From Psychromonas sp. psych-6C06 (GTDB lineage Bacteria; Pseudomonadota; Gammaproteobacteria; Enterobacterales; Psychromonadaceae): DNA of 64,000 bases. The notes beneath the pieces are model-generated. The model saw only the letters and a list, made by a program, of their open reading frames with translations. It ran no database searches and had not been told where the DNA came from. Below are positions 25,992 to 59,000 of this stretch, piece by piece. Position 1 is the first letter of the stretch, and each line of letters starts with the position of its first letter. The stretch covers positions 248,001-312,000 of the forward strand of contig NZ_PIZM01000006.1 of the NCBI RefSeq assembly GCF_002835465.1, given 5' to 3'. The position numbers and the translations under genes are program-made.

Positions 25992-26266
25992 TCAACCTTG
26001 CCTGCTAAACTTTACAAGCCGAACAACCTCTAACATCAATTTCCACTTTGAACTAATACCAAATCCACTAAATAACTGTTCAATCTTACTGGTTAAAAGA
26101 AGCTATTTCAGCGTTAAAAATTTCGTAAAGGGAACAACCATTTGCATCAATTTTCGCATTGAACTAACTCCTTTTTTCTGCGTAATATTTGATCACTATA
26201 TTAGCGGAATTGGTATAACCCCTCCTTCCTGCGCAATATGTGATCACCATTATTAATGGGGGGGGA
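25966..26266 (+). repeat. Older decayed copy of the 159-bp element, split by a younger copy
   Basis: If 26057-26218 is removed, the flanks join into a recognisable but diverged copy: TGATCAACCTTGCCTG..., GAACAACCTCTAACATCAAT..., then CCTCCTTCCTGCGCAATATG and TGATCACCATTATTA, in the same order as the intact element. About 30 bases of its centre are missing. Its left end overlaps the 3' end of cobD. The ends are approximate. Confidence 0.65.
26057..26215 (+). mobile_element. 159-bp inverted-repeat element, copy 1 (nested)
   Basis: Intact 159-bp copy from TACCAAATCC to GGAATTGGTA. The two ends are imperfect inverted repeats of about 30 bases (TACCAAATCCACTAAATA against TACCAATTCCGCTAATAT). It is flanked by TAA at 26054-26056 and 26216-26218, a 3-bp target duplication. 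It has no coding capacity. By my reading it differs from copy 4 at three positions. It lies inside an older copy of itself. Confidence 0.9.
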
Positions 26267-26311
26267 TCTCACTTTTTCCTATTTCCGCAAAATATTGTTG
26301 AATCTAATTAT

Positions 26312-26330
26312 GATAATGATTATCATTTGC
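26312..26330 (+). promoter_or_regulatory. Fur box
   Basis: GATAATGATTATCATTTGC matches the 19-bp Fur consensus (GATAATGATAATCATTATC) at 16 of 19 positions by eye. It lies about 35 bp before the first ATPase gene, overlapping the expected promoter region. It suggests repression of the operon by iron-loaded Fur. Confidence 0.75.
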
Positions 26331-26365
26331 ATGTCATTTAAATTAATCGGGAAAAAGGAGATTCG

Positions 26366-27223
26366 ATGCAAAGTGATAAACAGGAAAAACCGCTATTACA
26401 GGTCAAAGACTTGGTGGTGGAATACGTTACCGATGACGGGGCTTTCCGTGCGGTTAATGAGGTCAGTTTTGATATTGCACCTGGCGAAGTTTTTGGTTTA
26501 GCGGGTGAGTCTGGCTGTGGCAAAAGTACCATCGCATTTGCGATCACGCGTTTGCAAAAGCCACCGGCAATTATTCCTAGTGGCGAAATCTTTTATAAAG
26601 GCACTAATCTGCTCAACCTCTCTGATAGTGAGCTACAAGCTTATCGTTGGACACAAATTGCGATGGTTTTTCAGAGTGCAATGAACTCATTAAACCCGGT
26701 TATCAGCATTGAAGAGCAGTTTTGTGATGTCATATTGGCGCATACCAACATGAGCCGAAGTGACGCAATAGAGCGCGCTAAAAAACTCATGGATGTGGTT
26801 AAAATTCCACGTGAACGCATACGCGATTACCCACATCAATTTTCTGGTGGCATGCGCCAACGTTTGGTGATTGCAATTTGTTTGGTGCTTAATGCAAAAC
26901 TGATTGTTATGGATGAACCTACTACGGCGTTAGATGTGGTGGTACAGCGAGAGATCCTGCAGCAGATTTACCAATTAAAAGATGAGTTTGGCTTTTCGAT
27001 TCTCTTTATCACCCATGATTTGAGCTTGATGGCACAGTTCTGCGACCGTATCGGCATTATGTATCAAGGAAAATTAGTTGAGGTGAATGATGCGCAAGAG
27101 ATACGTAATTATCCGCGTCATCCATACACTAAAAAGCTTTGGTCTGCTTTTCCTTCTATTCATGAAGGGCGCAAAAATTACCAAGCAAATAGTGATTTTA
27201 TTCCTAAAATTGTTAATGCATAA
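26366..27223 (+). CDS. Dpp/Opp-type ABC transporter ATPase (DppD-like)
   Basis: A 285-residue ATPase of the peptide/nickel/oligosaccharide class: Walker A GESGCGKST, Q-loop VFQSAMNSLNPV, signature FSGGMRQR, Walker B LIVMDEPTTALD, H-loop ITHD, then the C-terminal HPYTKKLW motif typical of this family. AAGGAG precedes the ATG. A strong Fur box lies upstream. No permease or binding protein is encoded next to it, so it must serve proteins encoded elsewhere. The substrate is unknown. Iron control suggests a siderophore, metal or iron-stress nutrient (inference). Confidence 0.85.
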   Translation: MQSDKQEKPLLQVKDLVVEYVTDDGAFRAVNEVSFDIAPGEVFGLAGESGCGKSTIAFAITRLQKPPAIIPSGEIFYKGTNLLNLSDSELQAYRWTQIAMVFQSAMNSLNPVISIEEQFCDVILAHTNMSRSDAIERAKKLMDVVKIPRERIRDYPHQFSGGMRQRLVIAICLVLNAKLIVMDEPTTALDVVVQREILQQIYQLKDEFGFSILFITHDLSLMAQFCDRIGIMYQGKLVEVNDAQEIRNYPRHPYTKKLWSAFPSIHEGRKNYQANSDFIPKIVNA

Positions 27224-27234
27224 GCGAGGTTTAC

Positions 27235-28170
27235 ATGTCTGATTTAAATACACCTATTTTAGAAATGAACAATATTGTTAAAGATTTTCACAGCAAAGGT
27301 TTTTCTGGCTCATCGGTTTTTAGAGCGCTGAATGGGATTAATTTCAAAATTTATCAAGGCCGTGCGCTTGCACTTGTTGGTGAATCGGGTTGTGGTAAAA
27401 GTACCTGCGCTCGTTTGATAACTAAAATAGAAACGCCCACTGAAGGGGAGATTTTGTTTCATGGTCAAGATATTGCAACGATCAGTAAACGTGACGAAGT
27501 TTTAAATTACCGTAAAAACGTACAAATGATTTTCCAAGACCCATTCAGCTCACTTAATCCAACGCATACTATCTACCATCATTTATGTCGTGCGTTGTTG
27601 ATCCATGATCGATGCGTCAATAACCCTAAAAAATTACGTAGCCGTATTGAGGAGTTATTAGCGCAGGTAGAGTTACCCAGCTTAACCGCAGATAAATACC
27701 CTTATGAGTTAAGTGGTGGTCAACGTCAACGCGTCAATATGGCGAAAACATTAGCTGTCGGTGCTGAGTTGGTACTCGCTGATGAGCCGACTTCAATGTT
27801 AGATGTATCGATTCGTCTTGAGGTGCTAGATACCATGAAGAAGATGAAGCAGGAGCATGATATGGCGTTTTTATATATCACCCATGACTTAGCAACTGCG
27901 CATTATATTGCTGAAGAAACTGCAGTTATGTACAAGGGGCAAATCGTGGAGTGGGGCGATACGCATGAGGTTATTAATAATCCACAGCATCCTTATACTC
28001 AGTTATTAATTTCTGCGGTACCTGATCCGGAAGTTAAATTTAGAGAGGTGATGGAGCAAGATCTGGATTTCTCAATACATGCCGAAACCGTGCGTGCGCA
28101 AAGTGGTCATAAGGTTAATCAAGCGAAACAGATTAACCATAACCATTTTGTGCGCTTGCTAGCCAGTTAA
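27235..28170 (+). CDS. Dpp/Opp-type ABC transporter ATPase (DppF-like)
   Basis: A 311-residue second ATPase, partner of the previous one: Walker A GESGCGKST, Q-loop IFQDPFSSLNPTH, signature LSGGQRQR, Walker B LVLADEPTSMLD, ITHDLATAHY, and HPYTQLLI. Paired D/F ATPases form a heterodimer below two permeases in this class. It starts 12 bases after the first gene and ends 16 bases before the third, so the three form one Fur-box-led operon. The C-terminal tail (~30 residues) is basic and not conserved by eye. Confidence 0.85.
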   Translation: MSDLNTPILEMNNIVKDFHSKGFSGSSVFRALNGINFKIYQGRALALVGESGCGKSTCARLITKIETPTEGEILFHGQDIATISKRDEVLNYRKNVQMIFQDPFSSLNPTHTIYHHLCRALLIHDRCVNNPKKLRSRIEELLAQVELPSLTADKYPYELSGGQRQRVNMAKTLAVGAELVLADEPTSMLDVSIRLEVLDTMKKMKQEHDMAFLYITHDLATAHYIAEETAVMYKGQIVEWGDTHEVINNPQHPYTQLLISAVPDPEVKFREVMEQDLDFSIHAETVRAQSGHKVNQAKQINHNHFVRLLAS

Positions 28171-28185
28171 GGAGTAGGGGAGTTT

Positions 28186-28746
28186 ATGTCATCATTTTCA
28201 ATCGGGCAGTTTTCACTTGAGTATTGGCAGTCATTAACTGAAGAAGCGCAAACCAATCTAAGCCTCGGTGAATATTACCAAGCAGAGGAGTGTTACGGAC
28301 ATGCGTTAACCGAAGCGCAGAAGCTGATTGATGATCTCAGTTTAAGTGCTCAATATGAACACAGCGCACGGTTGTATAAAACGGCTTGTTATAATTTAGC
28401 GCGTGTTTGCCAATATCAAGCGCGCACCGATGATGCCTTTTATTATCATCAACTTGCACATATACAAATCCAGCAGTTTGCGGATAAACAGCAGCTGACT
28501 CCGGTGACGCGTTACTCCGCCTTGCAAGTCTTAGACGGTACAATTGTTACCCTGTTAGAGTATTATCAGCAATCCAACGTGAAAGCGTCGAAAAAGTTTG
28601 CCGATGCACTTATTAATGAGCATGTTGCCTTCATGGAAAAGCATAATAATATGAACCTATTAAGCGAAGCGCCACAGGAAACGACAGGATGCGGGCAATG
28701 TGAAGGCTGTGTGGTTCCCGATACAGAGAATGCGGTGATTCATTAA
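28186..28746 (+). CDS. Unknown TPR-like protein with a C-terminal CxxCxxC
   Basis: A 186-residue soluble protein I cannot assign. The first ~150 residues look all-helical, with TPR-like spacing (LSLGEYYQAEECYGHALTEA, then YNLARVCQYQARTDDAFYYH). The tail has GCGQCEGC, three or four cysteines that could bind a metal or an Fe-S cluster. It has no signal peptide. AAGGAG lies before the ATG and it follows the DppF-like gene by 16 bases, so it belongs to the Fur-linked operon. A role in handling iron or assembling the importer would be speculation. Confidence 0.7.
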   Translation: MSSFSIGQFSLEYWQSLTEEAQTNLSLGEYYQAEECYGHALTEAQKLIDDLSLSAQYEHSARLYKTACYNLARVCQYQARTDDAFYYHQLAHIQIQQFADKQQLTPVTRYSALQVLDGTIVTLLEYYQQSNVKASKKFADALINEHVAFMEKHNNMNLLSEAPQETTGCGQCEGCVVPDTENAVIH

Positions 28747-28769
28747 TTTACTGCGCAGGGTAGGGGAAT

Positions 28770-28802
28770 TCAGGGAACAGGCTGTAAAACGCTGTTCCCT
28801 GA
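28770..28802. terminator. Hairpin terminator between convergent genes
   Basis: TCAGGGAACAG (28770-28780) pairs perfectly with CTGTTCCCTGA (28792-28802) around an 11-base loop. It lies in the gap between the convergent TPR-like gene and the SDR gene, where a bidirectional terminator is expected. No long T run follows. Confidence 0.55.
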
Positions 28803-28851
28803 GAAATAATAACGAGATGAGTGCGTTATCATTACTCCTGATAGCGGTTGT

Positions 28852-29619
28852 TTACTGTTTATTGCCCCACTCGCTTGGGTCCGTTACATAGGTAACACCG
28901 CCATCCATCATAATATCGCTGGTGGTCATAAACGCCGAATCATCGCTGGCTAAAAATAGCGCCGCCCCTGCAACCTCTTCAACTGCGCCTTTACGACCTA
29001 GTGGAATACCCTCTTTAGCCGCTACTTCAACCTGTTCACGGTAATCGACTTTATCCCAAATATCTGTATCTGTTACACCAGGAGAGATGGTATTAGCGCG
29101 GATCTTTTTAGCTGATAAACCACAGGCAAAACTTTTCGTTAATGAAGAAATAGCCGCTTTTGATGCATTATAAGGTGCTTGATTCCAGCTTGCATGCAGT
29201 GCGCCAACGGAAGAGATTGAGATAACCGATGCACTTTCATTAAGTAATGGCGTCGCATATTGCATGGTAAAAAACGCCCCTTTTACATTAAGATCAAACA
29301 TCGTATCGAAGTCTTGCTCGGTTGTATCGGTAAACGGTTTTAACTGATAAGCACCTGCGTTGACCACTAAAATATCAAGGCTGGCAAACTCTTTAGTGAT
29401 CAGCTCGTAGGCCTTAGCAATTTCACTGACAGAAGATATGTCAGCGACCACTTCTAGTGCTTTACCGGCAAAAAATTGTTGGTTAAGTTGGCTTAGTTTC
29501 TGTGCATTTCTACCGTTAATAGCGATAGTTGCGCCCTCTTCAAAGTAACGTTTAGCGATTGCTAAACCAATGCCAGAGGTTGCACCGGTGATAAAAGCTT
29601 TCTTTCCTGATAATTTCAT
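28852..29619 (-). CDS. Short-chain dehydrogenase/reductase (SDR)
   Basis: A 255-residue classical SDR: cofactor motif TGATSGIG (near residue 11-18), NGR after strand two suggesting NADP(H), VVNAG, the catalytic SISSVG serine, and YNASK with the catalytic Tyr/Lys. The C-terminal DGGVTYVTDP is usual. The substrate cannot be told. The gene is alone and divergent from the GH3 gene at 29867 with a ~250-bp gap. A sugar-related role with that neighbour is only a guess. Confidence 0.85.
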   Translation of the reverse strand: MKLSGKKAFITGATSGIGLAIAKRYFEEGATIAINGRNAQKLSQLNQQFFAGKALEVVADISSVSEIAKAYELITKEFASLDILVVNAGAYQLKPFTDTTEQDFDTMFDLNVKGAFFTMQYATPLLNESASVISISSVGALHASWNQAPYNASKAAISSLTKSFACGLSAKKIRANTISPGVTDTDIWDKVDYREQVEVAAKEGIPLGRKGAVEEVAGAALFLASDDSAFMTTSDIMMDGGVTYVTDPSEWGNKQ

Positions 29620-29866
29620 AGTTATCCACTTATTGATTAAGGCAAGGGAGGGCGTGGTTGAGCATCGCCATATTATTTTCTTCGATTATATACAGATGGT
29701 GCGACTTCTCCAACCAACGAAATATTTTGCTGGTGGTGATGGTTTTCAAATAAAACAAGCGTTGCAATTTTATTGCTAAACAAGCTTTTATGAAGCTTAT
29801 CAATATATGCTGGCGATTATTTATCTACTATCAGAGCACGCTTAATTTTTATCACTGAGGTAAACA

Positions 29867-32431
29867 ATGCAAAAGAACCTGTTTAATACTCCTTATTTTT
29901 CTGACTGGCCCAAAATAGACTCACAGATAAAGCAAGATCCTACCGTTGAACAAGCCATTATAAAGATACTTAAACAGATGACCTTGCAGGAAAAAATAGG
30001 TCAGATGGTGCAACCGAATCTGCGTGGTGTGACGCCTGAGCAGGCGAAGCAGTATAAATTAGGCTCGATTTTAAATGGGGGCGGAAGCTGGCCAAATGAA
30101 AATAAATACGCCTCTGCGCAAGAGTGGGCAGATAAGGCGGATGAGTTTTGGTTCGCAGTAAAAGTCGCATTTGCCGATCGCCCCTTTGATATCCCTTTTA
30201 TGTGGGCAACCGATGCAGTACATGGGCATAACAATGTTTATGGTGCCACGGTGTTTCCACATAATATTGGTTTGGGTTGTGCGCGCGATGCTGATCTTAT
30301 TCAGCGTATTGGCGAGATCACCGCGATTGAAGTGGCTGCAACGGGGTTAGATTGGACATTCGCACCGACCGTGGCCACACCACGCGATTTAAGGTGGGGC
30401 AGGGTCTATGAAGGATATTCTGAAGATCCGAGTATTACTTATCTTTATGCTGCAAAAATGGTGAAAGGTTTGCAGGGCGATAGCGAAGCATTACAGGGTG
30501 ATACTAAAGTTATCTCTAACGTAAAACATTGGGTTGGCGATGGAGGCACTTTGCAAGGTGTCGATCGTGGCATCAATGATTACAGCGAAGCGTTGCTACG
30601 TAATATTCATGCGATGGGGTATTTTAGTGGCCTAACAGCGGGAGCGCAGGTAGTGATGTCCTCTTTTAATAGTTGGAAATCACCACTCAATTATGATCAT
30701 ACCCCTATGGTTGGTGGTGAGTACAATCATAAAATTCATGGCAGCCACTACCTGTTAACCGATGTGTTAAAAAAGAAAATGGGCTTTGATGGGATAATAG
30801 TCACTGATTGGCATGGTCACGCAGAGGTCAGTAAATGCAGCGATACCAATGCCAGTTATGCGGTGAATGCTGGTAACGATATTCTAATGGTGCCAGAATC
30901 TGAGCATTGGATGGATCTTTATCAGCAAACCGTTGCAGATGTTGAAGCTGGGATTATCGATATGTCACGTATCGATGATGCGGTAACGCGCATTTTACGT
31001 GTCAAAATGCGCGCCGGTCTGTGGCATAAAGGGCAACCTTCAAAACGCTCACTTGCCGGAAAAGAGGGATTGTTGGGGGCAGAAGCACATCGAGATGTTG
31101 CGCGAGAAGCGGTCAGAAAGTCTTTAGTATTATTGAAAAATAAAAATCAGTTACTGCCTTTATATCGCGAGCAGAAAATATTGTTAACTGGCAGTGCTGC
31201 CGATGATCTAAATAAGCAATCAGGGGGCTGGAATCTTACTTGGCAGGGCGATGAAAATAAACTCTCTGATTTTCCGGGCGCAACAACATTACGTATGGCA
31301 CTTGAGTCGGAATTAGGCGCTGAGCAAGTTGATTTTGATTTAGCGCTACAAAATGATTTAACACAATACGATGTTGCTGTCGTTGCCTTTGGCGAAGACC
31401 CCTATGCAGAAATGATGGGAGATATTAAAGAGTGGCAAAGCCTTGAGTTTTCATCTTTAAAGCGAAAATATCGTGCTGACTGTGAACGGATTGCAACACT
31501 GCATAAAGCCGGAGTAAAAGTTATCTCTATCTTCTTTAGTGGTCGCCCTTTATATGTGAATCGAGAAATATCGCTCTCTGATGCTTTTGTGGCTGCTTTT
31601 TTACCGGGCAGTGAGGGCGTCGGCATCACAGACCTATTATTACGTAATGCAAAGGGAGAAATAAATTACGACTTCCAAGGTAAGCTTTCCTACAGTTGGC
31701 CAAACAAAAAGCGCAGTGCGCGCGTGAATTGTTTGCCAAGTCATATTGAAAACTACCAAGTGCCTGCGAATGAGCAAGACCCGCGTGGAGAACATAAACC
31801 GTTATTTGAATTTGGTTATGGCCTCACTTATCAGGATAACAAACAGCCAATGTTGGATTTAGATAACATTGAATTAGATGAACTTTCATCGGGAGAAAAC
31901 GGTGCTGCTAACAATCTTGAAATCTATGGTGTGCGTTCAATTATTGGCGATTATCAGTTAAAAGCCAGCCCGTCGATATTTACGGAAGGTGAGCTCATTT
32001 CTCGTAATAACCCAATGCAATTTAAGTACTTAGCAACCCGTCCTTACAACTATTTACAGCAGCAGGATGCCGTTGAGCTGAGTTTTAAAGGGCAAGGTGG
32101 ATGTGTTTATATTGAAGCAAGCGATGGCGTTGCAGAGCAGATGGGTGACTATTTTGAGCAAGGCTATTTAAGTTTTGAATTAAAAGTGAGTCAATTACCT
32201 ACTGAGCCATTATTGGTGTCGATTAAAGGGTGTGATAAAAACATGCAACACGCGCTGTTTGGTAATGTCGATATTAGCCGCGAATTGAATATCTGCGATG
32301 AGTTTATCAGGCTTAACATACCTGCTAAAAAATTCACTGCGAGGGGACTAGAGCAGGTCGATAAACTATTCTGCTTACAGGTGTCGGGGCAATTTACAGC
32401 GGTCATTGCCAATGTAAAATGGTGTATTTAG
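29867..32431 (+). CDS. Glycoside hydrolase family 3 beta-glucosidase (exo-glucanase type)
   Basis: An 854-residue GH3 protein with the full set of domains: TIM barrel (~35-395), alpha/beta sandwich (~410-620) and a C-terminal ~200-residue domain like that in marine ExoP-type exo-1,3/1,4-beta-glucanases. The substrate loop WATDAVHGHNNVYGATVFPHN, KHWVGDGGT and the nucleophile Asp in IVTDWHGH are present. No signal peptide is seen, unlike secreted ExoP, so it probably acts in the cytoplasm on imported glucosides (inference). GAGG lies before the ATG. A strong terminator follows. Confidence 0.9.
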   Translation: MQKNLFNTPYFSDWPKIDSQIKQDPTVEQAIIKILKQMTLQEKIGQMVQPNLRGVTPEQAKQYKLGSILNGGGSWPNENKYASAQEWADKADEFWFAVKVAFADRPFDIPFMWATDAVHGHNNVYGATVFPHNIGLGCARDADLIQRIGEITAIEVAATGLDWTFAPTVATPRDLRWGRVYEGYSEDPSITYLYAAKMVKGLQGDSEALQGDTKVISNVKHWVGDGGTLQGVDRGINDYSEALLRNIHAMGYFSGLTAGAQVVMSSFNSWKSPLNYDHTPMVGGEYNHKIHGSHYLLTDVLKKKMGFDGIIVTDWHGHAEVSKCSDTNASYAVNAGNDILMVPESEHWMDLYQQTVADVEAGIIDMSRIDDAVTRILRVKMRAGLWHKGQPSKRSLAGKEGLLGAEAHRDVAREAVRKSLVLLKNKNQLLPLYREQKILLTGSAADDLNKQSGGWNLTWQGDENKLSDFPGATTLRMALESELGAEQVDFDLALQNDLTQYDVAVVAFGEDPYAEMMGDIKEWQSLEFSSLKRKYRADCERIATLHKAGVKVISIFFSGRPLYVNREISLSDAFVAAFLPGSEGVGITDLLLRNAKGEINYDFQGKLSYSWPNKKRSARVNCLPSHIENYQVPANEQDPRGEHKPLFEFGYGLTYQDNKQPMLDLDNIELDELSSGENGAANNLEIYGVRSIIGDYQLKASPSIFTEGELISRNNPMQFKYLATRPYNYLQQQDAVELSFKGQGGCVYIEASDGVAEQMGDYFEQGYLSFELKVSQLPTEPLLVSIKGCDKNMQHALFGNVDISRELNICDEFIRLNIPAKKFTARGLEQVDKLFCLQVSGQFTAVIANVKWCI

Positions 32432-32435
32432 GTTA

Positions 32436-32474
32436 AAAAAGCCCCCTGACAGTTCATCTATCTGGGGGCTTTTA
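32436..32474 (+). terminator. Rho-independent terminator of the GH3 gene
   Basis: AAAAGCCCCC and GGGGGCTTTT form a strong GC stem with a 17-base loop, ending in four T, just after the GH3 stop. It can also work in reverse. Confidence 0.85.
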
Positions 32475-32479
32475 AGGTC

Positions 32480-32571
32480 TAAGAAGCAATTTAAACTATC
32501 ATTTTACGCCGAAGTTCGCGGAAATAACGTTATTTTATCGCTTTGCTTATCCAGAACTGAGGTTATTTAGA
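32480..32571 (-). repeat. Partial copy of a second, ~150-bp repeat family
   Basis: The reverse complement starts TAACCTCAGTTCTGGATAAG and then follows the copy at 51250 with scattered differences, including CGTTATTT and a GCGT.AAAT stretch. It fills the gap between the GH3 terminator and ahpC and touches the ahpC stop. Confidence 0.5.
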
Positions 32572-33124
32572 TTTTACCAACGAGATCAAGTGATGGTGCA
32601 AGTGTTGCCTCACCCTCTTTCCATTTAGCTGGGCAAACTTCACCCGGATTCGCTGCAACATATTGCGCAGCTTTTACTTTACGTAGTAGGTCGTCTGCAT
32701 CACGGCCAATACCTTCAGCGGTAATTTCCATTGCTTGGATGATACCTTGTGGGTCAACTAAGAACGTTGCACGGTCTGCAAGCCCTTGCCCTTCACGCAT
32801 TACACCGAAATTGTTAGTTAGGTTACCTGACTGATCTCCAACCATGAAGTAATTGATTTTACCAATTGTTTCAGAGCTATCGTGCCATGCTTTGTGAGTG
32901 AAGTGTGTATCAGTTGATACTGAGTAAACTTCAACGCCACGTTTTTGTAGCTCTTCGTAGTGGTCTGCAACATCACCTAGTTCAGTTGGGCAAACAAAAG
33001 TAAAATCAGCTGGGTAGAAGAAAAAGATAGACCATTTTCCTTTTACGTCTTGCTCAGAGATCTCTACAAATTCGCCTTGTTTGAAAGCTGTCGCGTTAAA
33101 CGGTTTAATTTCAGTATTAATCAT
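32567..33124 (-). CDS. ahpC: Alkyl hydroperoxide reductase AhpC, copy 1
   Basis: A 185-residue typical 2-Cys peroxiredoxin: peroxidatic Cys in [12 protein letters not shown] (near 47) and resolving Cys in GEVCPAKW (near 165). It reduces H2O2 and organic peroxides and is recharged by AhpF. The protein is identical at every residue to the copy at 43615, although the DNA differs at many synonymous sites. This copy is not next to ahpF. An OxyR-like site lies upstream. Confidence 0.95.
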
Positions 33125-33224
33125 GTCGTTATCCTATTAAGTGAATTACTCGTTTTTACTTCGTTGTCTGCTTAGTTCTCCTAAGCGATGGAAAGAGTAT
33201 GAAATAAACTTTTGAATAGATAAA

Positions 33225-33261
33225 TTCGTTTATATCTATTATTTTAATAGTTTATAGCTAT
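33225..33261 (-). promoter_or_regulatory. OxyR-type operator upstream of ahpC copy 1
   Basis: CTAT (33236), ATAG (33247) and CTAT (33258) occur at 11-bp steps, three of the four quarter-sites of the ATAG-N7-CTAT-N7-ATAG-N7-CTAT OxyR pattern. The fourth position reads TTCG. It lies about 100 bp before the ahpC start. Binding is inferred. Confidence 0.6.
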
Positions 33262-33426
33262 GGAGTTATTTGTCCGTGCTAAGTCGTATTAAGTGATCTA
33301 TCTATTTGCTTATTTCGTATTTATGAGCAAAATCAAGAGTTAATAATGTGTATCAATCGCTTCTTTTTCATGCCGTTATTGATACTTTGCTTAATTTCTT
33401 AAATCAACATGGAACGATGATTCACT

Positions 33427-37574: not shown

Positions 37575-37587
37575 TTTAGCAAGTTGC
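37547..37587 (+). terminator. 17-bp perfect hairpin spanning the RND gene stop codon
   Basis: GCAACTTGCTAAATTAA (37547-37563) is followed by a 7-base loop and its exact complement TTAATTTAGCAAGTTGC (37571-37587). The stop codon at 37572-37574 is in the second arm. No T run follows, so a classical terminator is uncertain. It may protect the mRNA 3' end. Confidence 0.5.
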
Positions 37588-37736
37588 ATCATAAAGTGAG
37601 CATTTATGAAAACCATGTTAATTCGACAAAGATTACGTGGTTTTTATGCTTTAAAAGTATCGCTTACTTTGGTGTGTTGAGCCGGAAGGGCAACATTATT
37701 TGCAAAAATAAACTTGAAAGTTCAATAGACCTCAGG

Positions 37737-38504: not shown

Positions 38505-38764
38505 TGTTTTGATCCTTTATGGTGTGTGTTTATTGAGAGATTATGGCTGATTATATTCGTAAAATCTGGGTTGTGCCTTAATAGTGCTCATTAACCTTTG
38601 TGCTAGATAAGCAAAGCAATAGCATTACACTATTTCAGCGGGCCTCTGTGTTAAATGATCTTTTTCCTCTTTTATTCGTATTTACTAGCAACTCTGATAA
38701 ATAGATGATTTTTATGCTTATTCAAGTTATAGCTTATTTTGGTACCTACTTTTAAATTAAGGCA
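38505..38764. other. Intergenic region before the 38883 gene; nothing recognised
   Basis: AT-rich sequence between the marC start and a possible small frame at 38765. I see no repeat copy, tRNA or strong operator here. It should hold the marC promoter on one side and that of 38883 on the other. Confidence 0.4.
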
Positions 38765-38905
38765 ATGAGTTACTTCAATAAATACCTTGAGCTTGAAGGT
38801 TTATCCCAGACTAAATTGTGCACATATTTATCGGCAATGCGACCAGTAGTTAAAAGTGATGAAATAAAATTGGAGAGAGTGAATGAATATTTTTATTTTG
38901 GATGA
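38765..38905 (+). CDS. Possible 46-residue small protein (uncertain)
   Basis: An ATG frame encodes MSYFNKYLELEGLSQTKLCT, then a further 26 residues ending in EYFYFG. Composition is protein-like with amphipathic helices. It overlaps the next start by 23 bp in another frame. AAGG is only two bases before the ATG, too close for a good site. It could be a leader peptide or chance. Confidence 0.25.
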   Translation: MSYFNKYLELEGLSQTKLCTYLSAMRPVVKSDEIKLERVNEYFYFG

Positions 38906-43614: not shown

Positions 43615-44172
43615 TTAGATTTTACCTACGAGGTCAAGTGATGGTGCGAGTGTTGCTTCGCCCTCTTTCCACTTAGCTGGGCAAACTTCGCCTGGATTTG
43701 CTGCCACATATTGTGCGGCTTTCACTTTACGCAACAGGTCGTCTGCATCACGGCCAATACCTTCAGCGGTAATTTCCATTGCTTGGATGATACCTTGTGG
43801 GTCAACTAAGAACGTTGCACGGTCTGCAAGACCTTGACCTTCACGCATTACACCGAAGTTGTTCGTTAGGTTGCCTGACTGATCGCCAACCATGAAGTAG
43901 TTGATTTTGCCGATTGTCTCAGAGCTGTCGTGCCATGCTTTGTGTGTAAAGTGCGTGTCAGTAGACACTGAGTAAACTTCAACACCACGTTTTTGTAACT
44001 CTTCGTAGTGGTCTGCGACATCACCTAATTCAGTCGGACAAACAAAAGTAAAATCAGCTGGGTAGAAGAAAAAGATAGACCATTTACCTTTTACATCTTG
44101 CTCAGAGATCTCTACAAACTCGCCCTGTTTGAAAGCTGTTGCGTTGAAAGGTTTAATTTCAGTATTAATCAT
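43615..44172 (-). CDS. ahpC: Alkyl hydroperoxide reductase AhpC, copy 2
   Basis: A 185-residue 2-Cys peroxiredoxin with the same peroxidatic (FVCPTE) and resolving (EVCPAKW) cysteines as copy 1 and an identical protein sequence. The DNA differs at many third positions, except for a shared 95-bp stretch (43736-43830 here, 32688-32782 there). This copy heads the ahpCF unit and is the expected partner of AhpF. Its upstream region resembles that of copy 1 over ~60 bp. Confidence 0.95.
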
Positions 44173-49755: not shown

Positions 49756-49756
49756 T

Positions 49757-50422: not shown

Positions 50423-50525
50423 ACACTTTTCTGCTATCCATAAATGATAATAGATGGTGAAAATCTTTATGTGTGCATACACTTAGGAGATAGATATTTT
50501 TGTCTAGGGTAGCTTAGGAGCTTTT

Positions 50526-51239: not shown

Positions 51240-51249
51240 CCAATCTATC

Positions 51250-51406
51250 TAACCTCAGTTCAGGATAACTAAAGTGAAATATCAGCGCTATTTTCACTCA
51301 CTGATGCGTTAAATTATTTTTAATAACAACTCGTTATTGTTACGATAATTGACCTTGAATTACGCAAAACTAACGCTACTGAGTATTAAAAATAATCACT
51401 ATCTGA
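51250..51406 (+). repeat. Second repeat family (~150 bp), copy at 51.3 kb
   Basis: From TAACCTCAGTTCAGGATAA to AATAATCACTATCTGA, this aligns with the reverse complement of 63177-63326, including TACGATA, CAAAACTAA and GTATTAAAAATAATCACT. The two are diverged but run in the same order with few gaps. The rest of the 391-bp gap, to 51630, may be an extension: TGATCACAATATTATGCG near 51513 also has a counterpart near 63050. No gene is seen in the gap. Confidence 0.6.
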
Positions 51407-51630
51407 CCTACCTTGTGGGTTAAAAGAATAGATAACTGCGTTGCATTCAATCGCAATAGCTGACTCTCACTCAATCATGCGCCTGCGCTCTATCATTTTT
51501 CCTCAACAAGCCCTGATCACAATATTATGCGCAATGGTGTGATTTAAAATGCTCTTACGCTTACATTAACCAACATTGTGGCTTTTTAGCTTTGATCTAT
51601 TGCTGTTTTTTATTCGTATTAGTGCTTAGT

Positions 51631-52245
51631 TTAATTAATTTCAGTGCTTAGTGCTTGTGCCATAAATTGTGCAATCCAAGGTTGTGCTTCAGCTTTAGGG
51701 TGTAAACCATCTTTCATCATCCATTCGGGCTTGGTGATCACATGCTCTAAAAAGAAGGGCAGTAATGGTACTTTGTGTTGTTCACTAAGTGTGGGGTAAA
51801 TACCGGCAAAGGCTTGGCTGTAACGTTTACCATAATTTGTAGGTACATGGATTTGCATTAACAGAGGGCGTGCATCATTCTTCTTAATATTATTGATCAT
51901 CTTGGTTAGATTTTTATTGACAATATTAGGTGAAAAACCGCGTAAACCATCATTTGCCCCGAGTTCTATTAATACATAGTCTGGCTGATGTTTGTTTAAT
52001 AACGCAGGTAATCTTGCTACGCCGTTACCCGTGGTATCCCCTGAAATACTGGCATTAATTACGGTGACTTTTTTGCCCTGTTTTTGTAGCTCTTCAGGTA
52101 ACAGTGCGGGCCAGCTTTGCTCGCTGCGCATTTGATAACCGGCGCTGAGGCTATCTCCAACAATCAGTAACGTGTTACTGTAAACCATCAATGAAAACAT
52201 TAACGAACAGAGTGTTGATACTACTAAAAAAGTGAGTTTAATCAT
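51631..52245 (-). CDS. tesA: SGNH-hydrolase, TesA-type thioesterase/lysophospholipase
   Basis: A 204-residue periplasmic GDSL hydrolase: signal peptide (MIKLTFLVVSTLCSL), block I GDSLSAGYQ with the nucleophile Ser, block III GANDG, and block V DGLHPKAEAQ with catalytic Asp/His. Like E. coli TesA it should act on thioesters and lysophospholipids. I chose MIKL at 52245 over MDWL at 52257. Its ATG and that of the divergent ybbA share the bases CATG, so each promoter must lie inside the other gene. Confidence 0.9.
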   Translation of the reverse strand: MIKLTFLVVSTLCSLMFSLMVYSNTLLIVGDSLSAGYQMRSEQSWPALLPEELQKQGKKVTVINASISGDTTGNGVARLPALLNKHQPDYVLIELGANDGLRGFSPNIVNKNLTKMINNIKKNDARPLLMQIHVPTNYGKRYSQAFAGIYPTLSEQHKVPLLPFFLEHVITKPEWMMKDGLHPKAEAQPWIAQFMAQALSTEIN

Positions 52246-52930
52246 GAGCCAATCCATTATACAAGTTGATAATATTACTAAATCAGTGATCAGTAATGAT
52301 AGTCAATTATCTATTCTTAAAGGTATTTCTTTTAGCGTTAACGCTGGAGAATCCGTTGCAATTATGGGCACATCTGGTGCCGGTAAGTCAACATTAATGG
52401 GCTTATTAGCGGGGTTGGATCAGCCGACTTCTGGTTCTATTACGTTGTTAGATGCCAAAATTTCTGAAATGGATGATGAGCAACGTGCTGCAGTGCGCGG
52501 TGAGTCGATTGGTTTTGTGTTTCAAAATTTCTTGCTTATTCCATCACTAAACGCCTTCCAAAATGTCACTTTGCCGATGGTATTACGTGGTAATGAAGAC
52601 GATGCTACGAATACTGAACGAGCCAAAAAATTATTAGCAGAAGTAGGGCTCGCTGGGCGAGAAACACACTTACCCACGCAGCTTTCTGGTGGCGAACAGC
52701 AACGTGTAGCGCTCGCACGTGCCTTTGTCACTCAACCGAAAGTCCTTTTTGCCGATGAACCGACGGGTAATTTAGATCAGCAGACAGCACAACATATCAT
52801 TGAGTTACTGTTTGAGATGAATAAAGAGCAGGGCACCACGCTTATTTTGGTGACGCATGATGCAAACCTTGCTAAACGTTGTCAGCGCACACTCATCATT
52901 AACGATGGTCAATGTCAGGAAAGCCTATGA
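52244..52930 (+). CDS. ybbA: YbbA, ABC ATPase of the MacB/LolD type
   Basis: A 228-residue ATPase: Walker A GTSGAGKST, Q-loop VFQNFLLIPS, signature LSGGEQQR, Walker B VLFADEPTGNLD, H-loop VTHD. The LolD/MacB look, the downstream FtsX-type permease and the divergent tesA match the tesA-ybbA-ybbP arrangement of E. coli. The complex is thought to act on envelope lipids or stress, but its substrate is not settled. The stop overlaps the next ATG (ATGA). Confidence 0.92.
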   Translation: MSQSIIQVDNITKSVISNDSQLSILKGISFSVNAGESVAIMGTSGAGKSTLMGLLAGLDQPTSGSITLLDAKISEMDDEQRAAVRGESIGFVFQNFLLIPSLNAFQNVTLPMVLRGNEDDATNTERAKKLLAEVGLAGRETHLPTQLSGGEQQRVALARAFVTQPKVLFADEPTGNLDQQTAQHIIELLFEMNKEQGTTLILVTHDANLAKRCQRTLIINDGQCQESL

Positions 52931-55341
52931 AATCTAATAAAATGATAATTAGCTGGAGTTGGCGAGAGATCTGGTTTGGGCAACTATGGCCGGTGATGGT
53001 TGCATTAACTTTGATAATTGCCTGTGTGGTGGCTTTATCAACATTGGCTTTGCGCGTCGAAAAAGTGATGACCAATGAAGGGCGAGCGTTATTAGCCGCT
53101 GATTTAGTGTTTCGTTCGGCAAACCCCATTGAAGACAGCCTTCGAGCGCGAGCAGAGCAACAAGGGTTGATTGTCTCTGAGCAAAGCCGTTTTCAGACCA
53201 TGGCATTTAGCGACAAGAAGATGCAATTGGTGTCGGTAAAAAGTGTTGAAAGTAATTACCCCTTGCGTGGCGAACTTATTTTAAGTGCTGAGAATCAGCA
53301 GTTGGTTAATCAAGTTAATCCCGGAGAATTATGGTTATCACTGCGCTTGTTGGCATTATTAGAGGTTGAGATAGGTGATAACGTTGCCATTGGTGATGCA
53401 GAGTTAAAAGTAACAGGCATTATAAAAGAAGCGCCAGAGGTTGTGTTTAACCCTTTTAATAGTATTCCTAATCTGTTTATTCATCATAGTGATTTACAGA
53501 AAACAGGCGCGGTGCAAATAGGCAGTCGTGTTCGTCATCGTTTGTTTATCAATGGTGATGCGAGCGCATTGCAGGCCCTAAAAGATAAAGTGAGTTTACA
53601 GGCGGGTGAATCTTGGGTTGATGAAAATAAGCAGGGGCGCACTGCGGGCTTAATTGATAAAGCTAAGCAATACCTATCATTGACTATTCTCATGGTTATT
53701 TTGATGGCTGCGGTGACGCTCATTTTAACTTGTTTACACTATGCACGAAATCGTAGCGAGACGGTATCGATGTTAAAAAGCATGGGTGCAAGTCGTATCT
53801 GGTTGCGTCGTTGGTTAAGTACGCAGGTGCTGATCATGTTTGTCGTCGCGTTTATTGTAGGTAGCCTTTTAGGATGGTTACTCGAGCTATTATTGCGTTT
53901 GCCGCTGGCTGATATTTTACCTGAGCAATTGCCAAGTGTCGGTGTTCAGCCCTTTCTATTTGCTATTGCTGTCGCACTTTGTATCGGTTTACCTGCGTTG
54001 TTGATCCCTTTAACGCGTCTATTAGACGCACCCGCAATTAACGTCATACAGCAACAAAAAAGCACATATTCTAAAAGTAGCTGGTGGTTATTGTTATTAC
54101 CGGTGACTGCGTTGGCACTTTTTTACGGCTCAAATAATCTCGTATGGATGGTCTTAGGTGGGTTATTGCTGCTGTTCGCTTTTCTGGCCACAATCAGTTA
54201 TGGCTTGTTGCAACTGCTGGCTAAATTGAAGTGGGGAGCCGCCTTTAGTTTGGCGCTAAGTCGTATTAATCGTTCCCCTAAAAATAGCATGATGCAGTTA
54301 GCTGCTCTATCGGGATCGCTTATGTTGGTGGCGCTAATTTGGTTAATTAAAAGCGATCTATTAGGCGATTGGCAACAGACGCTTGCACCCGATGCACCTA
54401 ATGTTTTTGCGATTAATATTAGCCCCGAAGAGCAACAAGGGTACCTACAACAGGTAGATAGTTTTACTTTACCGCGTAGTGATGCCTTTGCCATTATTCG
54501 TGGCCGTGTTACAGAAATTAACACAATCCCTGCAAATGAATATTTCAGCGATAAGCAGGATCAGCCACGTATATTACAGCGTGAAGTTAACTTTACTTGG
54601 GCTAAACAACTGCCTGAATATAATGAGGTGGTTAGCGGTGAGTGGGAAGGCAAACAAACGGTTTCAGTAGAGCAGAAAGTTGCTAACGACTTGAATATCA
54701 AAGTGGGTGACAGCCTCACCTTTGAGGTTAATAGCCAGGTATTTAGTGCAACGGTAAATACTATTCGTAAAGTGCAATGGCAAAGCATGAAGCCTAATTT
54801 CATCTTTATTTTCAGTGAAGATGTGATTGCTGATCTTCCCGCGACATGGATGCTTAGCTTTAGAGCAGAGCAAGCACAAAATGAGTTGGTTAATCAGTTA
54901 GCGCGTTTATACCCGACAGTGAGCCTGTTAGATTTTCGTACTATGGGTAATAAAATACAGACCTTATTAAGACAGATATCTTGGTCATTAACAGGTCTTG
55001 CATCATTAGGTGTGGTAAGCGGTATTTTATTAATTTTCACGCTATTACGCTTAAGCCTGAGTGAACGGAAACGTGAGATAACGTTATACCGCACGTTAGG
55101 AGCGAGTAAAAAAAGGATAAGCCACACACTGTGGGCGGAGTATGGCCTGCTGGCTATCAGTGCTGGTTTAGTTGCTGCTATCGCTGCTGAAATGATTCTG
55201 TTTAGCTTAATGAAATGGGGATTTCAGTTACCGACACAACTCCACCCAATGATGTGGGGAATATTGCCAATATTAGCGGTCTCGATTGTGTTTTTAAGCT
55301 TAAGCTCAGTGATTAAACAGCTATTAAAACCATTGCGTTAG
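52927..55341 (+). CDS. ybbP: YbbP, FtsX-family ABC permease
   Basis: An 804-residue inner-membrane protein with the YbbP plan: an N-terminal helix (IISWSWREIWFGQLWP), a large periplasmic domain, three helices (~245-375), a central helix pair and second periplasmic region, and three C-terminal helices with the FtsX coupling motif LRLSLSERKREITLYRTLGAS. I chose the ATG at 52927 with AGGAAAG upstream, rather than the in-frame ATG at 52912 inside ybbA. It works with YbbA. Confidence 0.9.
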   Translation: MKSNKMIISWSWREIWFGQLWPVMVALTLIIACVVALSTLALRVEKVMTNEGRALLAADLVFRSANPIEDSLRARAEQQGLIVSEQSRFQTMAFSDKKMQLVSVKSVESNYPLRGELILSAENQQLVNQVNPGELWLSLRLLALLEVEIGDNVAIGDAELKVTGIIKEAPEVVFNPFNSIPNLFIHHSDLQKTGAVQIGSRVRHRLFINGDASALQALKDKVSLQAGESWVDENKQGRTAGLIDKAKQYLSLTILMVILMAAVTLILTCLHYARNRSETVSMLKSMGASRIWLRRWLSTQVLIMFVVAFIVGSLLGWLLELLLRLPLADILPEQLPSVGVQPFLFAIAVALCIGLPALLIPLTRLLDAPAINVIQQQKSTYSKSSWWLLLLPVTALALFYGSNNLVWMVLGGLLLLFAFLATISYGLLQLLAKLKWGAAFSLALSRINRSPKNSMMQLAALSGSLMLVALIWLIKSDLLGDWQQTLAPDAPNVFAINISPEEQQGYLQQVDSFTLPRSDAFAIIRGRVTEINTIPANEYFSDKQDQPRILQREVNFTWAKQLPEYNEVVSGEWEGKQTVSVEQKVANDLNIKVGDSLTFEVNSQVFSATVNTIRKVQWQSMKPNFIFIFSEDVIADLPATWMLSFRAEQAQNELVNQLARLYPTVSLLDFRTMGNKIQTLLRQISWSLTGLASLGVVSGILLIFTLLRLSLSERKREITLYRTLGASKKRISHTLWAEYGLLAISAGLVAAIAAEMILFSLMKWGFQLPTQLHPMMWGILPILAVSIVFLSLSSVIKQLLKPLR

Positions 55342-55410
55342 GTAAGCTTTAAAGATGAAAAAAGCGATCTGATTTTATGCAAAGGATAATGAATGGAGTT
55401 TTAGGTCTAA

Positions 55411-55481
55411 TAGCAATGCAATTTAGAAAGTGATCTCGTATTGCGTAGGGAAAATAGATCAGCTATTTATTCAGATTGGTA
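55411..55481 (-). repeat. Short deletion derivative of the 159-bp element
   Basis: The reverse complement begins TACCAATCTGAATAAATAG and CTGATC, like one end of the element, and passes directly into ACGCAATACGAGATCACT and ATTGCTA, like the other. The middle ~88 bp is missing. It is diverged, lies just upstream of copy 3 in the same orientation, and lacks a clear target duplication. Confidence 0.4.
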
Positions 55482-55511
55482 CCACATCATAGGTAGTGTA
55501 AATTTTAATAA

Positions 55512-55670
55512 TACCAATTCCGCTAATATAGTGATTAAATATTACGCAGGAAAAAGGAGTTAGTTCAAGGCGAAAATTGATGTAAATGGTTGTTCCCTTT
55601 ACGAAATTTTTAACGCTGAAATAGCTTCTTTTAACCAGCAAGATTGATCAGTTATTTAGTGAATTTGGTA
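55512..55670 (-). mobile_element. 159-bp inverted-repeat element, copy 3
   Basis: Intact 159-bp copy in the opposite orientation to the others, from TACCAATTCC to GAATTTGGTA on the plus strand. TAA flanks both sides (55509-55511 and 55671-55673). It lies in the 484-bp gap between ybbP and ssb, which otherwise holds only the derivative at 55411 and the ssb terminator. Confidence 0.93.
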
Positions 55671-55751
55671 TAAGTAAGATAGATCATCTTTTTAATTCTT
55701 TTAGTATAACTAGAAGGCTTTCCGGACTTGAGTAAGTGACGAGTTAAACAT

Positions 55752-55779
55752 TAAAAAAGCCAGCAATTAAGCTGGCTTA
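55752..55779 (-). terminator. Rho-independent terminator of ssb
   Basis: On the reverse strand AAGCCAGCTTAATTGCTGGC forms an 8-bp GC-rich stem followed by six T. It lies ~45 bp past the ssb stop. Confidence 0.88.
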
Positions 55780-55825
55780 GAGAATGTTTTATATTTTATT
55801 TTTACATTATTGTAAAATATAGACG

Positions 55826-56461
55826 TTAGAACGGGATATCATCATCAAAATCCATTGATGGTTCATTATATTGAGCGGGCGCTTGCTGTGGTGTTTGCTG
55901 AGGTGCAGGGCGAGCAGGTGCTTGTTGTGCAGGTGCCTGCTGTGGCGTCGGCTGATATGCCGGTGCCATTTGAGGAGCTGCTTGTTGCTGCGGTGCTGGT
56001 GCAGATTGCTGAGGCGCATTACCCCAAGATTGCTGAGCCTGTTGTGGTGCTTGTTGTTGCCCTCCTTGGAATTGTTGGTTCTGCCCGCCTTGGAACTGTT
56101 GACCACCTTGACCGCTATTATTTGAGTCCATCATCTGTAGCTCAGAAACGACAACATCAGTTGCATACTTATCTTGTCCGGTGGTTTTATCTTGCCATTT
56201 ACGTGTTTTTAGTTTGCCTTCAACGTAAACTTTTGCGCCTTTTTTAAGGTATTGACCACACATCTCACCAAATTTTCCGTATACAGTCAGGTTATGCCAC
56301 TCGGTTTGATTTTCATATTCGCCAGTTTGTTTATTCTTCCAGCTTTCAGTGGTTGCGATTGAAAAATTTGCTACCGCATTGCCATTTGGCATATAACGCA
56401 TCTCTGGATCTTTACCCAGGTTACCCACTAAAATTACTTTGTTTATGCTACGGTTAAACAT
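55826..56461 (-). CDS. ssb: Single-stranded DNA-binding protein
   Basis: A 211-residue SSB: OB-fold in residues 1-~112 ([20 protein letters not shown] onward, [20 protein letters not shown]), then a long Gln/Pro/Ala/Gly-rich linker (~115-200), then the acidic tip DFDDDIPF that recruits partner proteins. It is longer than E. coli SSB (178) because of the linker, as is common in this group. It lies 13 bases after the MFS gene in the same direction. Confidence 0.97.
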
Positions 56462-56474
56462 CTCTTCTCTCCGC

Positions 56475-57836
56475 TTATACTAAAATTTGTTTGGCTGCTT
56501 GCAAGGTAAAAATTTTATTATTTACCTTAATGTAAACAGTCTGCTCTTCAATGATAATCACGACTTCTAATACACCTTCAACTTGAATTAACTGTTCAGT
56601 TAACTGCGTTGCATGATGTTCATCTTTAATGGTTGCCGTTAATGTATGCGTACGAATTTTACTTGGGTTATGCATACCCCATGAAACAAAGAACCACATC
56701 AACATTAAGCTAGCTAAAAATAAAAATAGGCCACTATTGCCAAGTAGTTTATAGGAAACGCCCCCTAATATGCCACCAAAAAATGCGCCTAAAAACTGAT
56801 ACGTGCTGTAGATCCCCATTGCACTGCCTTTCGCACCAGCAGGGGATAGCATTGAGATAAAAGCAGGCAGGGAGGCTTCTAAAAAGTTAAAGGCAGTAAA
56901 ATACAGTAACATGCATAAAAACATTACTAGCAAAGATTGTTCAGTGAATGCCATAAATACTAAGCTCAGCGCCATTAATAGGATAGAAAACAGGTAAAAC
57001 TGGCGATTTTTTTCTTTTTTCGCTGCCACAATTAACATCGGAATAATCAATAAAAAAGAGAGGAGAAGAGCTGGTAGATAAAGATACCAGTGACTTTGAG
57101 CTTCTAGATGCATCGTTTGCAATTGTAATGGCAGGGCGATAAATACCGCGGTGAGTGTCATATGTAGCGTAAATATGCCCACATTTAAGCGTAATAATTG
57201 TGGGTTTTTCGCTAACTTTCCTAGCATGGCTGGAATTGCTACTGTTTCTCCGCGAGGTGCTTTGCTAACGATATGAGGCACTAAAAAATGCACGATGGCA
57301 ATGCCTATCAGCGCACCACCTGCGGTAATAAGAAACAATCCCTGCAAACCAATAAATGGTGCTAAAACAGGGCCGGCCACCATCGAGACTGCAAAGGCAA
57401 GTCCAATGCTGACACCAATCATTCCCATCGCCTTAGGGCGCTGCTCTTCACGTGTTACGTCGGCCGCTAAGGCTAAAACAGCGCTCGCTATCGCCCCCGC
57501 TCCCTGCAATGCTCGGCCAAGTGTTACGCCGTAAACGCTCTCTGAGTAAGCTGCCACTAAGCTACCAATGGCAAATATCAGTAAGCCGACATAGATAATT
57601 GGGCGACGACCAAATTTATCGGAAAGCATGCCCGCAGGAATTTGTAACAGTGCCTGGGTTAACCCGTAAGCGCCAATCGCAAGCCCGACCCACATCGGTG
57701 AATAGCCGATGAGTTCCTGTCCGTAGATTGCAAATACGGGCATGATCATAAATAGACCCAGCATACGTAAAGCAAATACCAGCGACAGTGATATCGCGGT
57801 ACGTTTTTCTAATGGATTAAGGGCATCAACTTGCAT
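56475..57836 (-). CDS. YajR-type MFS transporter with C-terminal YAM domain
   Basis: A 453-residue protein with 12 expected membrane helices. Motif A reads [11 protein letters not shown] between helices 2 and 3. After the last helix (~385) a soluble ~65-residue domain ([20 protein letters not shown]) resembles the ferredoxin-like YAM domain of YajR. The substrate is unknown. The gene is followed by ssb on the same strand. The gap to rlmJ is divergent (57837-57944) and should hold both promoters. Confidence 0.88.
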
Positions 57837-57944
57837 AAATGTTCCAGTTCAGCAAAATAATTTGGGCGCGAATTGTAGCATGCTTAGCGCTATTACAAAA
57901 AAATCATTATACTGCGCGCACCACTCTCAGTTTTAGGAAACACC

Positions 57945-58787
57945 ATGCTCAGCTATCGCCACTCTTTCCACGCGGGAAATTTCGCCGATGTATTAAAACA
58001 TACGGTTTCGGTTGCTATTTTTAACCATATGCTGAAAAAAGATAAGCCTTTTTGCTATCTCGATACGCACTCCGGTTGTGGCGCTTATTCACTGAATTCT
58101 GAGCAAGCCTTAAAAACGCAGGAGTTCAATAATGGTATTATGCGTCTATGGGGACGTGCTGACTTGCCTGAACCGGTAGCGAATTATATGCAGCAAGTGG
58201 TTGAGTTTAACGCGCAAAGTAGTTTAAAACATTACCCAGGCTCACCGAGTATTGCGCGCCAAATGTTACGCGATAATGACCGCATGTTTTTGTTCGAGTT
58301 GCACCCGAATGAGTTTACTAATATGCGCGAAAATTTTTCTGGTGACAGGCAGATAAAAATGTCTAACAAGGATGGTTTGCAAGGTTTGGTAGCCAATATG
58401 CCGCCGAAAGAGCGTCGTGGTTATGTGTTGATTGACCCCTCCTATGAGATTAAAAGTGAATATCAGGAGGTTGTTGAAACCTTAATCGAAGCGGTTAAGC
58501 GTTTTGCTACAGGCACTTACGCTCTGTGGTATCCGGTTGTCAATCGCATCACGATAAAAAAAATGGAGCGTGAGTTGATCGACTCAGGTATTAAAAACAT
58601 TCAATTATTTGAATTGGGTATCGAAGCTGATTCTGGTGAAAAGGGCATGACATCAAGTGGCATGATTGTTATCAATCCACCTTGGACGCTGAAAAAAGAG
58701 ATGCAAGCCGCTTTGCCGTTTCTGGCTAAAAATCTAGCCAAAGAGGACAAAGGTTTTTATCGTATTGAAACATTAGTTGAAGAGTAA
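57945..58787 (+). CDS. rlmJ: 23S rRNA (adenine2030-N6)-methyltransferase RlmJ
   Basis: A 280-residue RlmJ/YhiR: MLSYRHSFHAGNFADVLKH at the N-terminus, the SAM region LDTHSGCGAYSL, and the catalytic VLIDPSYE, a DPSYE form of the usual DPPYE motif. It methylates A2030 of 23S rRNA. The length fits E. coli RlmJ. Its TAA stop is also the left target duplication of element copy 4, which begins at the very next base. Confidence 0.96.
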   Translation: MLSYRHSFHAGNFADVLKHTVSVAIFNHMLKKDKPFCYLDTHSGCGAYSLNSEQALKTQEFNNGIMRLWGRADLPEPVANYMQQVVEFNAQSSLKHYPGSPSIARQMLRDNDRMFLFELHPNEFTNMRENFSGDRQIKMSNKDGLQGLVANMPPKERRGYVLIDPSYEIKSEYQEVVETLIEAVKRFATGTYALWYPVVNRITIKKMERELIDSGIKNIQLFELGIEADSGEKGMTSSGMIVINPPWTLKKEMQAALPFLAKNLAKEDKGFYRIETLVEE

Positions 58788-58946
58788 TACCAAATCCACT
58801 AAATAACTGATCAATCTTACTGGTTAAAAGAAACTATTTCAGCGTTAAAAATTTCGTAAAGGGAACAACCATTTGCATCAATTTTCGCATTGAACTAACT
58901 CCTTTTTCCTGCGTAATATTTGATCACTATATTAGCGGAATTGGTA
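58788..58946 (+). mobile_element. 159-bp inverted-repeat element, copy 4 (at the rlmJ stop)
   Basis: Intact 159-bp copy, TACCAAATCC to GGAATTGGTA, with TAA on both sides (58785-58787, the rlmJ stop, and 58947-58949). It is the closest to copy 1. The rest of the gap to 59088 holds a perfect hairpin and nothing else recognised. Confidence 0.94.
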
Positions 58947-59000
58947 TAATTCGAAGAGCTATCGCACTTTCTAATGTTGACAGCAAACATGTTCTTTCTA

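Follow-up and report, generated by a model that had tools for sequence, protein, structure and literature searches.

The window analyzed here is a 64,000-nucleotide stretch of the genome of Psychromonas sp. psych-6C06 (contig NZ_PIZM01000006.1, positions 248,001 to 312,000). It contains four near-identical 159-bp repeats. These repeats are copies of a small mobile element without genes, and this genome carries well over a hundred of them. The element is probably non-autonomous, moved in trans through its ends, with a strand-specific folded core that acts as a single strand. On this reading, which we favor, the structured core would have outlived several sets of ends.

Copies of the element and evidence of movement

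A sequence-only reading of the window had described a mobile, non-coding unit with the form of a miniature inverted-repeat transposable element (MITE) and 3-bp target duplications of the form TNA (N, any base). The four 159-bp copies that it placed in the window are there, with the flanks TAA, TTA, TAA, and TAA. Between any two of them, 3 to 7 positions differ. For copies 1 and 4, which had been said to differ at about three sites, the number is exactly 3. The longest stop-free run is 45-52 codons in the four copies, which are thus short and without coding capacity, as MITEs are. The census of four was correct, but it overlooked four further members and the older relative in which copy 1 is nested (last six rows below).

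26057..26215, hairpin strand minus: copy 1; flanks TAA/TAA; model match 152.5 bits
38239..38397, hairpin strand minus: copy 2; flanks TTA/TTA; model match 153.9 bits
55512..55670, hairpin strand plus: copy 3, inverted; flanks TAA/TAA; model match 152.1 bits
58788..58946, hairpin strand minus: copy 4; flanks TAA/TAA; model match 153.7 bits
3809..3966, minus: diverged full-length member; flanks TGA/TAA; 78.1 bits, E 3.4e-14
51381..51539, minus: weak, diverged full-length member; 41.4 bits, E 1.7e-6
38686..38842, minus: weak, diverged full-length member; 35.9 bits, E 2.3e-5
55411..55481, plus: 71-bp member with both ends present and the center deleted; 36.2 bits, E 2e-5
25992..26056, minus: interrupted older relative, left part, into which copy 1 inserted; more certain for 26021-26056
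26219..26259, minus: interrupted older relative, right part, directly right of copy 1

The weak member at 51381 is overlapped by an 86-nt inverted repeat pair (51321-51406 and 63177-63262, 80% complementary), which perhaps represents further diverged elements.

The unit is dispersed through the 3.72-Mb genome. BLAST with the 159-bp unit matched at least 43 places at E ≤ 0.001, a lower bound with 40 of 143 candidates scored. Identical 3-bp flanks were present in 28 of the 30 BLAST-found copies that were fetched. The genome contains 127 occurrences of the end pattern TNATACCAAWTCC and none of its reversed control. Covariance model R1 gave at least 146 matches at E ≤ 0.001, no two at one place; this is also a lower bound, with 150 of 2,953 candidates scored. 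Together, the matches cover at least 23,181 bases; lengths of 157-161 bp account for 120 of the 146. Flanks were inspected for the 108 R1 matches that lie in fetched sequence. A perfect TNA duplication borders 76 of them (TAA 43, TTA 31, TGA 1, and TCA 1). Ten more have TNA on both sides with unequal N, for a total of 86 of 108 with TNA on both sides, and the remaining 22 have neither. The BLAST places and the flanks (28/30 and 76/108) bear out the description of a mobile, genome-wide, TNA-duplicating unit. A second genome of the genus (G022) contained at least 118 R1 matches with 150 of 2,726 candidates scored; a few of these are second-strand calls of one place.

Copy 1 is nested in an older relative, and the join falls in that relative's GAACTAAC. 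When copy 1 and one TAA were removed in silico, the joined flanks aligned to the sequence of copy 1 with a score of 83 (maximum of 35 in 200 shuffles). The alignment of the joined flanks to a further locus, L107, extends further left (score of 65; shuffled maximum of 41). The nested copy thus reveals the empty target in the older relative, so that both the target and its duplication are demonstrated.

The left TAA of copy 4 serves an rlmJ-like gene as its stop codon (57945-58787; Pfam RsmJ). Among the genomes of the genus that were searched, 14 others carry this gene. In 13 of them, R1 at E ≤ 0.01 detected no element at the end of the gene. The fourteenth locus (L377, G014) has a weak match near the gene (23 bits, E 0.0094). 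The unit therefore does not always lie in the same orthologous site. At one locus (L368, G004:C3), the stretch beyond the rlmJ-like gene resembles cloning-vector lacZ-alpha sequence, and it may reflect contamination or an engineered strain.

Both neighboring genes were called, with a simple open reading frame (ORF) caller, for 101 copies in this genome. Five of these copies sit exactly on a stop codon. Forty-four lie between convergent genes, 29 lie in sense between tandem genes, 17 lie antisense between tandem genes, and 11 lie between divergent genes. The 401 intergenic gaps of more than 60 bp in the sampled stretches include 85 convergent and 97 divergent gaps. Measured against this background, the enrichment between convergent genes indicates that the copies avoid promoters and accumulate at gene ends. 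Repetitive extragenic palindromic sequences (REPs) are likewise mostly downstream of genes (PMC3733652).

These positions bear on the idea that the element is a domesticated regulatory RNA that benefits the host. It could be, for example, a hairpin in 3' untranslated regions that RNase III processes and that transposition has spread, with selection maintaining it at many sites. The 44 convergent and 29 sense copies would fit such a role, but the 17 copies antisense to both neighbors would not. Folded MITE transcripts can alter mRNA stability (PMC3733652). Host benefit would be expected to conserve the element site by site. At the one site tested, this was not observed: 13 of the 14 rlmJ loci of relatives lack the element. 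We consider domestication of this kind very unlikely.

Ends and hairpin structure

In this order (Enterobacterales), the inverted ends of the element read TACCAA-N6-TAANTANNTGATC. The six intervening bases vary. They pair with each other across the element, which explains the variation between ends. The end pattern was found in 86 of 394 genomes of the order, and its reversed control was found in none among the matches listed. The hairpin spans the full length of the element. It contains two conserved internal loops (GCAGGAAAA/TTTTAACCAG and CAAGGC/AACGCAG) and an apical loop of the GTTGTTC type.

Structural alignment A1 was made from elements of the Psychromonas genus and of other families. 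Of 82 extracted elements, 5 were left out because they were filled with N, uncertain in orientation, or weak in their match, and the other 77 were thinned at 90% identity to 35 that are pairwise less than 90% identical. The alignment supports a 54-pair hairpin. Its pairs are formed in 90.0% of 1,855 cells (76.3% in shuffled alignments), both-sided changes occur at 34 of the 54 pairs (23.1 shuffled), and the covariation score is 0.389 (0.150 shuffled). None of 500 shuffles equaled the observed pairing, double-change, or covariation value. When partners were slid by 1 to 3 columns, pairing fell to 29.8-45.7%. The strong covariation is central and far from the ends (columns 46-57, 63-67, and 77-83). 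RNAalifold gave -68.5 kcal/mol, and the best of 30 column shuffles, which moved gap-free columns only, gave -9.8 kcal/mol.

The pairing favors one strand. A single copy folds with -44.6 kcal/mol on the structure strand (z of -5.2) and -35.6 kcal/mol on the opposite strand (z of -5.0). The structure strand has 120 G-U pairs and 44 A-C mismatches. When the pairing was chosen anew on the opposite strand, A-C mismatches still numbered 100, against 115 G-U pairs. G-U pairs in RNA and G-T pairs in single-stranded DNA favor one strand alike, so the folding molecule could be either. In relatives across many Gammaproteobacteria, one strand has retained the ability to form this long hairpin even as its letters change, which suggests that the folded strand itself has a job.

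The element has no counterpart in Rfam 15 at the gathering threshold across the whole window, and five element loci gave no match at E ≤ 1. The only Rfam match in the window was a cobalamin riboswitch (2665-2801; 52 bits).

Spread within and beyond the order

Model R1 matched 140 of the 394 genomes of the order at E ≤ 1e-4, including 23 of the 24 genomes of the genus. Matches below 1e-15 were present in eight families (f1, f2, f6, f7, f10, f12, f16, and f21). Weak matches in other families of the order may be chance. A pattern scan matched at least 120 stretches and gave 80 named loci. Their hosts are Vibrio, Aliivibrio, Photobacterium, Grimontia, Shewanella, Psychromonas, Aliagarivorans, and Alteromonadaceae. 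R1 found elements in 74 of the 80 loci, at 79 places after removal of one second-strand call, and gave no match in the other 6. The 3-bp flanks are identical at 63 of the 79 places, and TNA stands on both sides at 69.

The hairpin was also obtained de novo from elements outside Psychromonas. With the Psychromonas elements set aside, 53 elements were thinned at 88% identity to 12 non-redundant ones, one of them centrally deleted. They folded into the same hairpin. The set covers elements from Vibrio, Aliivibrio, Photobacterium, Shewanella, and Alteromonadaceae.

The nearest neighbor of an element was from the same genus in 73 of 80 rows. The spread thus appears to be chiefly vertical, with bursts recurring within species, in an uneven sampling of genera. 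One member (L362) is on the 16-kb plasmid pGJ3-2 of Photobacterium sp. GJ3, a possible route of transfer. The viral contigs contained no exact match to the end-plus-loop pattern.

Relatives of the element occur outside the order. At E ≤ 1e-9, 24 of 369 genomes of the class matched; 2 of these belong to the order, and 22 belong to other orders. Examples outside the order are G693 (E 7e-20, four places) and G440 (eight places, 157-158 bp). A model without structure, built on sequence only, recovered 19 of the 20 fetched out-of-order loci at E ≤ 4e-5, mostly across the core. Fifteen of the 20 were folded without any model. They have the same architecture, with 62 pairs, of which 47 show double Watson-Crick changes. 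G-U pairs numbered 77 and A-C mismatches 15.

The ends of the out-of-order elements are unlike TACCAA. They include GGAACCTCTGATTAATTC, GGGTACCTC, AAGACTATTGC, and TACCCCGCC. Because the same core occurs with unlike ends, it seems older than any one set of ends. The target duplications of the 20 elements follow no single rule. By eye, L389 is flanked by TTA/TTA, and L388 and L402 are flanked by TTAA/TTAA. A plasmid search with three out-of-order elements gave no match.

These relatives may belong to a class-wide mobile lineage that is defined by its folded strand, RNA or single-stranded DNA, and not by a transposase. The fold would then be part of mobilization, the terminal repeats (TACCAA, GGAACCTCTGA, GGGTACCTC, AAGACTATTG, and others) would be swapped, and the mover would not resemble any known partner of bacterial MITEs. 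We regard this wider proposal as doubtful.

Search for the mover and mode of movement

A 3-bp duplication of the TWA type resembles those of the IS1031 group and PIF/Harbinger, so a DDE transposase acting in trans is the default assumption. Insertion takes place at TNA, which in this genome is TAA or TTA in nearly all cases, and duplicates those 3 bp. In the mechanism that we favor, the element would be moved in trans, as double-stranded DNA and through its ends, by an enzyme that is most probably a DDE transposase making 3-bp staggered cuts. The folded strand would be active in single-stranded form, most likely RNA within read-through transcripts. A protein may recognize its two internal loops, and such recognition would keep the core while lineages exchange ends.

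Several results weigh against this mechanism. The search for an enzyme gave no partner. The PF01609 transposase has 0 matches in this genome. PF13586 and PF13359, searched in 31 genomes each, gave 25 and 6 loci, and 0 of these 31 loci have paired TACCAA ends; many are cut by contig ends. A lone end-like motif is present at 7 of the 31, and the cut contigs make this a weak test. No longer form of the element (TACCAA ends with equal TNA flanks, 500-4,500 bp apart) was recognized in 2,814,233 fetched bases, overlaps counted. Other points concern the folded strand. Among the 46 copies between tandem genes, 17 are antisense to them. The opposite strand folds as well, less stably. The covariation counts are inflated by kinship of the elements, and in A1, A3, and the 12-element set the structure was derived from the same alignments that were used for counting. 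The structure strand is biased toward the lagging strand in this genome (G000; 77 of 115, P = 0.00035), a possible pointer to single-stranded DNA, and this bias is lost in G022. There the count was 49-51 of 91, depending on the assumed skew switch, with 27 of the 118 matches excluded because they were weaker or were second-strand calls at a place already represented. Replication-strand bias was dropped as evidence since it was not reproduced.

The search for longer forms also returned 6 end pairs, which we read as chance or as neighboring elements. Two longer candidates (L251 and L196) each borrow the end of a complete element. In G017, sixteen partial IS5-type transposase matches lie near contig ends (loci L064 and L068-L083, less L070). 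They appear to be a burst of an insertion sequence (IS) without the paired ends of this element.

The link to the IS5 family that had been guessed for the element thus found no support in these tests, and no full IS with matching ends came out of them. That reading had also stated that no transposase is in the window. This held for the ten ORFs scanned, nine of which have Pfam matches and one of which does not; the statement covers more ORFs than these ten.

The folded strand may itself be needed for movement. A host or element enzyme would then take a single-stranded DNA hairpin or an RNA copy as its substrate, as with attC or REP/RAYT, and a staggered target cut would give the 3-bp duplication. 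The nearly constant length, the one-strand covariation across the whole length, and the lack of an ordinary partner IS in the searches made are what such a route would produce, but IS200/IS605, RAYT, and attC are not known to leave a target duplication, and the lagging-strand bias that it leads one to expect failed in G022. We consider it unlikely.

The element could also be an ordinary MITE, an internal deletion of an IS5-like IS of the IS1031 type, with the hairpin a by-product of long inverted repeats. It has the inverted ends and the TNA duplications of such a derivative, and IS1031-type IS duplicate TNA. Covarying pairs deep in the center of A1 are not accounted for in this way, however, and neither is the excess of G-U over A-C on one strand nor a core common to elements with unlike ends. 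The IS5-type loci in the genus, many of them cut by contig ends, lack paired ends, and PF01609 is absent from this genome. An ordinary MITE is therefore quite improbable. The MITE description stood for mobility and TNA duplication. A plain MITE accounts neither for the covarying hairpin, which is specific to one strand, nor for its survival in different families at a length of mostly 157-161 bp and, with unlike ends, in different orders. We thus retain movement in trans through the ends, combined with a folded core, as the probable reading.

Outside the element, the window contains two 185-aa peroxiredoxin (AhpC/TSA) genes on the minus strand, 11 kb apart (32567-33124 and 43615-44172). A 300-nt stretch of the pair is 92% identical in DNA, and their Pfam scores are identical, consistent with recent duplication or gene conversion.

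Relation to known systems

Bacterial MITEs are usually read as short-lived IS debris. Here, a gene-less element of near-constant length is present in 23 of 24 genomes of a genus and in at least eight families. It adds a large family without an Rfam match to genomes as well studied as those of Vibrio and Shewanella. It also raises the question of whether the folded strand serves the movement of the element or the tolerance of the host for it. No description of these elements was found in the literature searched; subscription papers were largely outside that search, and an earlier account is possible.

The IS1031 group of the IS5 family and the eukaryotic PIF/Harbinger-Tourist elements make 3-bp TNA (TWA) duplications, as this element does. 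IS5-family ends begin with G, unlike the ends of this element, which begin with TACC. In REP/RAYT and attC systems, structure rather than sequence is kept and hairpins are dispersed in the genome, and neither system is known to make a target duplication. REP palindromes carry a GTAG or CGTC tag. They are 20-40 bp long (PMC3733652). The length and 3-bp duplication of the element do not fit REP/RAYT membership.

Enterobacterial repetitive intergenic consensus (ERIC) sequences are about 127 bp long and imperfectly palindromic, and their target is TA. Unlike ERIC, this element duplicates a 3-bp TNA with matching N. ERIC sequences are intergenic, dispersed in Enterobacteriaceae and Vibrionaceae, and non-coding; they have been called a MITE, and their transcripts form stem-loops (PMC10969869). 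The element resembles them in being intergenic, dispersed, non-coding, and stem-loop forming. Membership in ERIC was rejected: with filters off, two Escherichia coli ERIC loci (one from K-12) gave no match above 5.3 bits, and the ERIC core gave 4.6 bits at best. The motif CTGCGTT...CGCCTT surrounds the central stem of ERIC in E. coli K-12 F' (L408:340-490), and the element has the same motif on the strand opposite the hairpin. This is only a lead, and the models see no relation.

Bacterial MITEs are 70-300 bp long, have inverted ends and no genes, can be mobilized by transposases that recognize their ends, and may fold in transcripts (PMC3733652). Unlike the MITEs NEMIS/Correia, RUP, YPAL, and Nezha, this element has a covarying strand-specific core that is common to an order and, with other ends, extends beyond it, and no partner IS was found for it. 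Its lifestyle is that of structured MITE-like repeats. What sets it apart is the covarying strand-specific core across an order and beyond, with ends that can be exchanged.

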